Assembly (NCBI GenBank): GCA_903856295.1
Contig: CAIOBP010000205.1
Span: 1-61,856 of the forward strand
Direction: 5' to 3'
DNA length: 61,856 bases
Source: an uncultured Rhodospirillales bacterium
GTDB lineage: Bacteria > Pseudomonadota > Alphaproteobacteria > Azospirillales > Azospirillaceae
The notes under the pieces are model-generated. The model saw nothing but the letters and a program-made list of their open reading frames with translations. It ran no database searches and was not told the DNA's origin. Position numbers and translations under genes: made by a program. Shown one piece after another: positions 31,554-33,609 of the stretch (position 1 is its first letter; the number at the start of each line of letters is the position of its first letter).

Positions 31554-31583
31554 TTGACATATTTGCGAGGCAGGTCGTAGACT
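31554..31583 (+). promoter_or_regulatory. probable sigma-70-type promoter of the ATP synthase operon
   Basis: A perfect -35 consensus TTGACA is followed after 18 bases by TAGACT, a good -10. The predicted transcript would begin about 40 bases before the TTG start codon of atpI. Confidence 0.55.
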
Positions 31584-31631: not shown

Positions 31632-32048
31632 TTGGCTTCCATTGACGCCCCACCCGGCCTTAAGGAATTGGAGGAACGGGTTCTGCGGGCGAAGCAACTC
31701 TCCTTGCAGGGGGGCTGGAATGCTCCGCCGCCGCCTGCAGAAGATGCTCACAACAAGGGAATGCTGTCCCTCGCCCTTCGTCTCGGCACGGAGATATTGG
31801 CTGCTTTGATCGTCGGCACCTTCGGTGGCGTTATGCTCGACAGCTGGCTGGGCACGAAGCCCGGCTTTCTGATCGTCGGGCTGATCGTCGGCATCGGCGG
31901 CGGCGTGGCCAACATATATCGCGCTGTGGGTGGTTATGGCTACGCCATCGGCTACCGGGACGCGCAGGAAGACTCAGACCACCGGCAAAACGCGACAGCC
32001 GTGCCGCCAGCCGGTCCCAACGCTTCGGAGCACAAAGGCGAAGCCTAG
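31632..32048 (+). CDS. atpI: ATP synthase protein I
   Basis: Small membrane protein that helps assemble the c-ring of ATP synthase. It has 138 residues with two membrane helices (LALRLGTEILAALIVGTFGG and PGFLIVGLIVGIGGGVANIY), as in alphaproteobacterial AtpI. The start is a TTG at 31632 giving MASIDAPPGLKELEERV, which matches the family; GGAACAGGA is just upstream. It is the first gene of the short F0 operon, 25 bases before atpB. Confidence 0.9.
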   Translation: MASIDAPPGLKELEERVLRAKQLSLQGGWNAPPPPAEDAHNKGMLSLALRLGTEILAALIVGTFGGVMLDSWLGTKPGFLIVGLIVGIGGGVANIYRAVGGYGYAIGYRDAQEDSDHRQNATAVPPAGPNASEHKGEA

Positions 32049-32073
32049 TGTCGAAGCAGAATAACAAGCGAGG

Positions 32074-32823
32074 ATGACCGTGGATCCGCTTCATCAGTTC
32101 AGCATCAAGCCAATTTTTACTGTCGTCATTGGCGGTACGGACGTATCGTTCAGCAATTCGTCCTTGTCGATGATGGCGGTTGTTCTCATTGTCTTTTCTC
32201 TCATGACCTTCAGCGTGAAGAGTAAGAGCTTGGTGCCCGGGCGCTGGCAGTCCCTGGCCGAGATTTTTTACGAATTCATCTCGCGCATGGTCAGGGACAA
32301 TGCCGGGCACGATGCCAAGCCGTTCTTTCCCTTCGTGATCACGCTGTTCATGTTCATTCTCTGCGGCAATCTGCTGGGCATGGTTCCGGGCGCGTTCACC
32401 TTCACCAGCCACATCGTCGTGACCTTCTCGATGGCGATCTTCGTCTTCTCGATGGTGACGCTGCTGGCCATCGTGAAGCACGGCATCAAGTTCCTCACCT
32501 TTTTCATGCCTCATGGCGTGCCGCTGTGGATGGCGCCCTTGCTGGTTCCGATCGAGATCGTCTCGTACCTGTCCCGCCCGATCAGCCTCTCGGTTCGTTT
32601 GTTCGCCAACATGATGGCGGGCCACACGATGCTGAAGGTGTTCGCCGGCTTCACCATCATGATGATGGGCTCGGGGACGGCGCTGGGATACGCGGCCGGG
32701 GTGGTTCCGGTGGTCATCAACGTCGCGCTGATCGGTTTCGAGATCGGTGTCGCGCTGCTGCAAGCCTACGTTTTCACGATCCTGACCTGCCTCTACATCA
32801 AGGACGCCCTTGAACTGCACTAG
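32074..32823 (+). CDS. atpB: ATP synthase F0 subunit a
   Basis: Forms the proton half-channels of ATP synthase. It has 249 residues and about six membrane helices. The essential Arg175 is in SRPISLSVRLFANMMAGH, and the last helix has FEIGVALLQAYVFTILTCLY. It looks fully functional. The gene for the c subunit (atpE) should follow it, but only 89 bases separate its stop from the next gene, far too few. Confidence 0.96.
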   Translation: MTVDPLHQFSIKPIFTVVIGGTDVSFSNSSLSMMAVVLIVFSLMTFSVKSKSLVPGRWQSLAEIFYEFISRMVRDNAGHDAKPFFPFVITLFMFILCGNLLGMVPGAFTFTSHIVVTFSMAIFVFSMVTLLAIVKHGIKFLTFFMPHGVPLWMAPLLVPIEIVSYLSRPISLSVRLFANMMAGHTMLKVFAGFTIMMMGSGTALGYAAGVVPVVINVALIGFEIGVALLQAYVFTILTCLYIKDALELH

Positions 32824-32912
32824 GCGCCGGGCAGACTCAAAATCCATGGACTGAAATACGGGCGCGCCAGCTTCGGAGCACAGTTTCGGCGGCGCGCGTG
32901 GGAGACGACGAA

Positions 32913-33545
32913 ATGAATATCATATTCGGGGTGGCGGACTATCTTTCACGGAGCCGCCTGATCAGGACGCTGGCGCTGGTGGCGCTGGTGTTGGCGGTGA
33001 CGACCGTTGGCGCGCTGGCCAGCGGCGGTGGCGAGCATGGCGGCAACGCCGGGTTGCCGCAGCTCAACCCCAGCACCATGATGACGCAGATTTTCTGGCT
33101 GATCGTCAGCTTTCTGGTGCTCTACTTCATGCTGTTCGGCGTCGCGCTGCCCCGGATCGAGGAAGTGCTGAACACCCGTGAGAGCCGAATCTCCTGGGAC
33201 ATCACCAAGGCCGACGAGATCCGCAACGAGTCGAACGCCGTTCTCGCCTCGACCGAGCGCATGCTCTCCCGCACCCAGGCCCAGGCCAGGGAGATCATCT
33301 CCCGGACCAGCAGTCAGGGGCAGGCCTCCGGCAAGTTGCTGATGGACCGGTTCGACCGCGAACTGACCCGCAGCACCCGCGAGGCCGAAGGCCGAATTCT
33401 CGCCGCCAAGAACGCGGCGCTCGGTGAACTGGACAAGACGGCGACCGACCTTGCGCTTCAAGTCGCCTCGCGCCTCGCGGCGGTCGAGATCGACCGCCCC
33501 CAAGTCGCCGAAGCGGTCAAGGTCGCGATCAAGCAACGGAACTGA
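32913..33545 (+). CDS. ATP synthase F0 subunit b'-like protein
   Basis: A peripheral-stalk subunit of 210 residues. It starts with a hydrophobic N-terminal segment (TLALVALVLAVTTVGALAS) that may be a signal or second anchor, then GLPQLNPSTMMTQIFWLIVS and a membrane helix, PRIEEVLNTRESRI, and a long charged coiled coil. The NP..MMTQIFWL region and LPRI..VL.TR are marks of the b' form found next to atpE in Rhodospirillales. The ATG at 32913 with GGAG upstream is preferred to a GTG at 32898. No partner b gene follows; a terminator does. Confidence 0.85.
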   Translation: MNIIFGVADYLSRSRLIRTLALVALVLAVTTVGALASGGGEHGGNAGLPQLNPSTMMTQIFWLIVSFLVLYFMLFGVALPRIEEVLNTRESRISWDITKADEIRNESNAVLASTERMLSRTQAQAREIISRTSSQGQASGKLLMDRFDRELTRSTREAEGRILAAKNAALGELDKTATDLALQVASRLAAVEIDRPQVAEAVKVAIKQRN

Positions 33546-33575
33546 CACCAAGTTCCGACACGGTAGAGGTTTCGG

Positions 33576-33609
33576 CGAGCGCGGCCTGGGGGTCGCGCTC
33601 GTTTTTTTT
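33576..33609 (+). terminator. rho-independent terminator of the F0 operon
   Basis: An 8-bp GC-rich perfect stem (CGAGCGCG with CGCGCTCG) is followed immediately by eight T residues. It lies 30 bases after the b'-like gene stop and closes the atpI-atpB-b' transcript. Beyond it, up to 33829, only a short direct repeat of a CCAG.AGTTGCCGGG unit is visible. Confidence 0.88.

Follow-up and report, generated by a model that had tools for sequence, protein, structure and literature searches.

The F0 sector of the ATP synthase of this uncultured bacterium is encoded at two places. The genes for AtpI, subunit a (atpB) and subunit b′ lie together in the window, by which we mean the whole stretch of DNA analysed (61,856 nucleotides, contig C205), and a c gene (c1) and the b gene lie on a second contig, C30, beside minCDE. 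We propose that the I-a-b′ cluster of the window has been relocated and that its products form, together with c1 and b of C30, one ordinary proton F0; to this account as a whole we give a probability of roughly 0.8. The genome is a 255-contig draft of 4.02 Mb, with a completeness of 98.97% and a contamination of 0.6%.

The atpI-atpB-b′ cluster of the window

Three genes follow each other on the forward strand. The gene atpI (31632-32048), encoding a 138-residue member of the F0 assembly protein family with a TTG start (PF09527, 8e-14), precedes atpB (32074-32823), which encodes a subunit a of 249 residues that we call type 1 (PF00119, 7.7e-68); after a c-free linker of 89 bases (32824-32912) comes the gene for a type 1 b′ subunit of 210 residues with a signal-like N-terminus (32913-33545; PF00430, 5.1e-20). 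For b′ the ORF tool picks a GTG at 32898, and the ATG at 32913 was used. The three reading frames are intact and all their Pfam scores lie above the cut-off. The c, b and b′ proteins, above the Pfam cut-offs, fall below those of the NCBIfam equivalog models, the best b′ model giving 97.6 bits for the window protein against a cut-off of 186. Downstream of b′ an intrinsic terminator (33574-33609, forward strand) consists of a 13-pair stem (33574-33603) and a T run with eight T, so that the series of genes and terminator described in the initial annotation is confirmed; the scan gave three sites against 1.8 expected, the other two with 5 pairs each. Upstream of atpI there is a sigma-70-like promoter sequence, TTGACA-18-TAGACT (31554-31583, forward strand), which agrees with the consensus at 10 of 12 positions. 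This was the one site found against 0.6 expected in shuffles, and is only suggestive of a real promoter.

Neither a c nor a b gene adjoins the cluster, and in the whole-genome search all five c genes and the b gene were located on other contigs. The linker between a and b′ had been judged too short for atpE, and a search for c within it gave a match score of 20, no better than shuffles (maximum 31). The absence of b after b′, also reported initially, holds as well, the terminator being followed by a gene encoding a YARHG protein. A comparison of b with the stretch after b′ reached a score of 54 (maximum 50 in 200 simple shuffles) through a gappy match that enters the YARHG gene; we take it as an effect of composition, but it may be a worn remnant of b. 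The hydrophobic N-terminus of b′, which had been called an unusual extension, is the usual state: in 73 of the 75 measurable b′ proteins a common anchor is preceded by 25 residues or more. This anchor could be located in 77 of 136 loci, and taking the farthest start within 60 residues biases the lengths upward.

The four other genomes of the genus (G001-G004; the present genome is G000) contain a divergent set of a, c, b and gamma genes, absent here, which is taken as a putative N-ATPase. On that ground the window genes could be imagined as part of an N-ATPase or alternate F1F0-ATPase, an identity already refuted by the model scores: the window subunit a reaches 341.8 bits with the ordinary F0 model NF004482 (cut-off 225) against 85.9 with altF1_A (cut-off 302.1), and the divergent a proteins of the genus mates are 26-28% identical to it.

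The minCDE-linked site and its relatives

The order on C30 is prfA, tRNA-Met, b, b′ stump, c and PhoH, with minC-minD-minE on the other strand. Between c and b lies a stretch that reads in frame over 34 codons (ATDLARR...AIKECG-stop), the stop of which overlaps the start of b (TAATG) and which holds an AAGGAG box, the ribosome-binding site, before b. It is identical to residues 177-208 of the window b′ at 20 of 32 positions; none of 1000 shuffles was as good, and the same result (0 of 1000) was obtained against b′ of G003. Judged by these matches, the stretch is the stump of a b′ C-terminus.

G003 (record CAIZDL010000074.1, Umea3_bin-0647) represents the sister species. Its contig C74 carries c-I-a-b′-b on one strand adjoining minC-minD, and there too a is followed by b′ without an intervening c. 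Since G003 is intact at the minCDE-linked site, C30 can be read as a G003-type operon minus I, a and most of b′, and the window as the missing part; thus I-a-b′ is the part that would have left, c and b having stayed. The initial annotation had suggested that atpE and atpF might have moved elsewhere: they are indeed on another contig, but they appear to have remained at the old site.

Each of the five members of the genus has its b gene next to minCDE genes, and all of them retain, ahead of b, the AAGGAG box and the overlapping stop and start. In G001, G002 and G004 this site has b without a, b′ or c, and G002 retains atpI there (PF09527). Before b in these three genomes the last codons of b′ were read visually; a formal search of the frames for the stump gave nothing above shuffles (21, 9 and 14 of 300 as good), and the stretch could be retained for the ribosome-binding site alone. 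A promoter common to the window, C30 and G003 was sought by shuffle-tested matching, with weak support: the promoter-like stretch of C30 matches weakly that upstream of atpI in G003 (1 of 500 shuffles as good), and the region upstream of the window cluster matches neither of them well (84 and 23 of 500). A search of G003 for a clean empty landing site found the homologues of the window flanks on separate contigs beside other genes.

In order to place this gene order we surveyed 79 genomes, comprising the present one, the four of the same genus, 42 more of the family and 32 of the class. F-type a was matched 80 times, in 75 genomes; immediately downstream of 67 of these matches comes c, with 47-184 bases between match ends. 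The remaining 13 belong to G000 (two), G002 (two), G003, G001, G004, G011 (two), G013 (two), G052 and G071. In G052, an alphaproteobacterial genome, a and c are on separate contigs (C197 and C39) and the 719 bases after a are c-free; in G071 the a gene is at a contig end, and no c was found. The adjacency of a and c, part of the order regarded initially as usual, is accordingly usual in the family, with c directly after every F-type a in 40 of 47 family genomes. The seven exceptions fall in three genera (the five members of the present genus, G011 and G013), and each of the seven has one or more F0 sets in which c precedes a. On these gene orders, the lack of c between a and b′ characterises a wider clade. 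The initial annotation had counted relatives sharing the a-b′ adjacency as evidence against a rare arrangement, and in part they are, since the adjacency recurs in G003 and c lies upstream of a in F0 sets of the clade.

We propose the following course of events. The ancestor of the genus would have had an F0 operon c-I-a-b′-b beside minCDE, with c already ahead of I. In the present genome I-a-b′ would have arrived at the window site, with its own promoter-like site and terminator, and the old site would have lost I, a and the greater part of b′ by deletion, leaving c, the b′ stump with its ribosome-binding site for b, and b itself, whose translation is probably coupled to the stump. Jointly, the two transcription units would supply every part of a type 1 F0 (c, a, b′ and b). 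Codons of b′ survive in both places, which makes copying with later complementary losses likelier than a simple cut and paste; it would represent the simplest course.

The fragmentation of the assembly into 255 contigs invites the explanation that c and b were simply dropped from the window contig and that C30 is a chimera or a strain variant. We regard this as very improbable, since the missing genes lie in a coherent, scarred locus: C30 has the same syntenic neighbours as in the four genus mates, the b′ stump is in frame and overlaps b, c1 and b are single-copy, and contamination is low; furthermore, the operon is seen at other stages of its disassembly in the four genus mates.

A second F0 set and a single F1

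The whole-genome search for atpE, atpF and a second atpB, named in the initial annotation as a check, returned five c matches above the cut-off (C30, three on C186, and C118), a single b and a second a on C186. Three b-type proteins score above the cut-off, namely b of C30, b′ of the window and b′2 of C186, and exactly one of them is b. Against this stock of five c, two a, two b′ and one b stands one F1, with only one gamma found in the genome. C3 carries alpha, for which the model score exceeds its cut-off, and also beta and epsilon, assigned there through a PF00006 match and their sequence. The other two PF00006 matches, FliI (C249) and Rho (C144), were rejected as a second F1.

C186 carries, in this order, c2, I2, a2, b′2, a 4HB-MCP-type protein, c3, a 208-aa ORF and c4. 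The 4HB-MCP-type sensor protein (L010 11580-12350) and the ORF (L010 10557-11183, no Pfam match) thus lie among the c genes of the second set. The group c2-I2-a2-b′2 is located at one common site in G001, G002 and G004, and no b was found beside it in any of the four genomes (G000, G001, G002 and G004). Identity between type 1 and type 2 is 57% for a, 36% for b′ and 46% for c1 and c2. The initial annotation had offered a second, partial F0 set as an alternative for the window; such a set exists, but it is that of C186, and the window genes belong to the old set. In the tree of subunit a the type 1 proteins (window, G003 C74 and G002 C255; 3 rows) form one clade with supports of 100/99 to 100/100, and the type 2 proteins (C186, G001, G002 and G004; 4 rows) another with 100/100, so that both types would predate the split of these species. 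In AU tests neither a clade uniting types 1 and 2 (p 0.216) nor one made of all 11 rows from the three genera (p 0.422) was rejected; a grouping of type 2 with the second G011 and G013 sets, chosen post hoc from the tree, was disfavoured (p 0.028). The c tree is mostly weak, with 10 of 32 inner branches well supported among 37 rows.

The same ancestor would also have had the diverged second set without a b of its own, which the present genome retains on C186. G001 and G004 have type 2 a and c only, apart from the divergent N-ATPase-like set, and one could suppose by analogy that the cell runs on the C186 set and that the window cluster is a dispensable, dying duplicate, the more so as b′ and I are just 70% and 60% identical to those of G003 (I over 134 codons). 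We consider this improbable, though slightly less so than an assembly artefact. Subunit a is 89% identical to that of G003 and its SVRLFAN motif keeps the Arg that we take to be the essential one of this subunit; the window genes are free of internal stops, with dN/dS of 0.09-0.24 against G003 (window values are 0.09 and 0.15 for a, 0.17 for b′ and 0.24 for I); c1 and b are also kept, and the promoter-like site and the terminator are present. Overall, dN/dS was 0 to 0.35 in 37 of 40 pairwise comparisons and undefined in three through dS saturation, all values being rough because many dS exceed 1.

All five c proteins keep the helix-2 Glu and none has the Na+-type Ser/Thr after it, positions which we take as the ion-type motif. 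In the loop c1, c2 and c4 have RNP or RQP, and c3 (L010 11318-11587) and c5 (L011 9762-10034) have NNP and CNP, without the conserved Arg, which presumably matters for F1 binding. The c4 protein is 88-93% identical in three genus members (L010 9717-9989, L092 7274-7543 and L088 4808-5074; dN/dS 0.04-0.09), and its neighbours differ: it is an orphan in G003, follows a1-b′1 on C255 of G002 and lies on C186 here. The present genome, in which ordinary c genes are most numerous, lacks the N-ATPase-like set of its four genus mates.

The type 2 set, if used, would depend on the single b and the single F1. The genomes G001 and G004, in which the old site is reduced to b and only the second set is retained, suggest that type 2 does use the common b and F1. 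It is possible, if doubtful, that in the present organism one F1 and one b are common to both sets and that the c ring, a and b′ come from either type 1 (window and C30) or type 2 (C186) in exchange. If this were true, the two motors would perhaps differ in ring size and thus in proton cost per ATP, the separation of I-a-b′ from c-b would let a and b′ be set separately from the many-copy c, and c3, c4 and c5 may be further ring parts. Two F-type a genes were found in five of the 79 genomes (G000, G002, G011, G013 and G045), each with one ordinary gamma, the match in G013 being partial and G045 being an 860-contig draft. G011 (L097, L096) and G013 (L099, L100), of other genera, have two c-I-a-b′-b sets and one gamma match each, with a partial b match in the second set. 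The complete genome G006 has a second, divergent a beside c (C1:381775-382344) and one gamma match only.

Comparison with known systems

The genus offers a series from intact (G003) through split (G000) to I plus b (G002) and b alone (G001 and G004) at the old site, each stage having a different stock of F0 parts and one ordinary F1. Such a series would show which subunits can be swapped and which one, b, must stay, and it makes testable whether one F1 can work on two F0 motors with different gearing. The window and C30 together hold what an ordinary F-type F0 comprises, an F0F1-family a with its Arg and c, b and b′ within the genome. The alphaproteobacterial I-a-c-b′-b operon consists of the same gene families, and F1 is separate here too (C3); the differences are that c lies ahead of I in this clade and that I-a-b′ and c-b are apart here, with no c between a and b′ and with a terminator and the YARHG gene in the place of b. 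Acetobacterium woodii has a hetero-oligomeric c ring and resembles the present case, known here from gene content, in having several c genes in one bacterium.

The splitting and duplication of F0 as such are already known. The ATP synthase locus has been split or duplicated at many points (Koumandou and Kossida 2014, PMC4154653); for alphaproteobacteria the available part of that paper names only the b/delta split, a/c and c/b splits being given for other groups. Two ATP operons in alphaproteobacteria are mentioned in PMC9317440. In titles and abstract openings of the open literature we found, for this group, no description of a single F1 served by two F0 sets with a common b. The C186 set is an ectopic second F0 in that it adds a, c and b′ and no F1, and in this it is like Desulfococcus oleovorans, for which PMC4154653 describes extra F0 genes without an extra F1. 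There, however, a full F0 is present in one species, with possible transfer of a and c, whereas the second set here has no b, seems to predate the genus and is the sole set other than the N-type in two relatives. Photobacterium profundum SS9, according to PMC10054830, has two complete ATPase operons used in a condition-dependent manner; it shares with the present genome, where the matter is known from the genes, two F0 versions per cell, but each F0 has its own F1 there and here there is one. In Podospora anserina paralogous c subunits, encoded by two genes, are combined with one F1, reportedly with changed rate and yield (PMC4956034). The likeness, on gene content, is that of differing c proteins on one F1; Podospora is a eukaryote with only c duplicated, whereas in the present genome the duplication extends to a, b′ and c.
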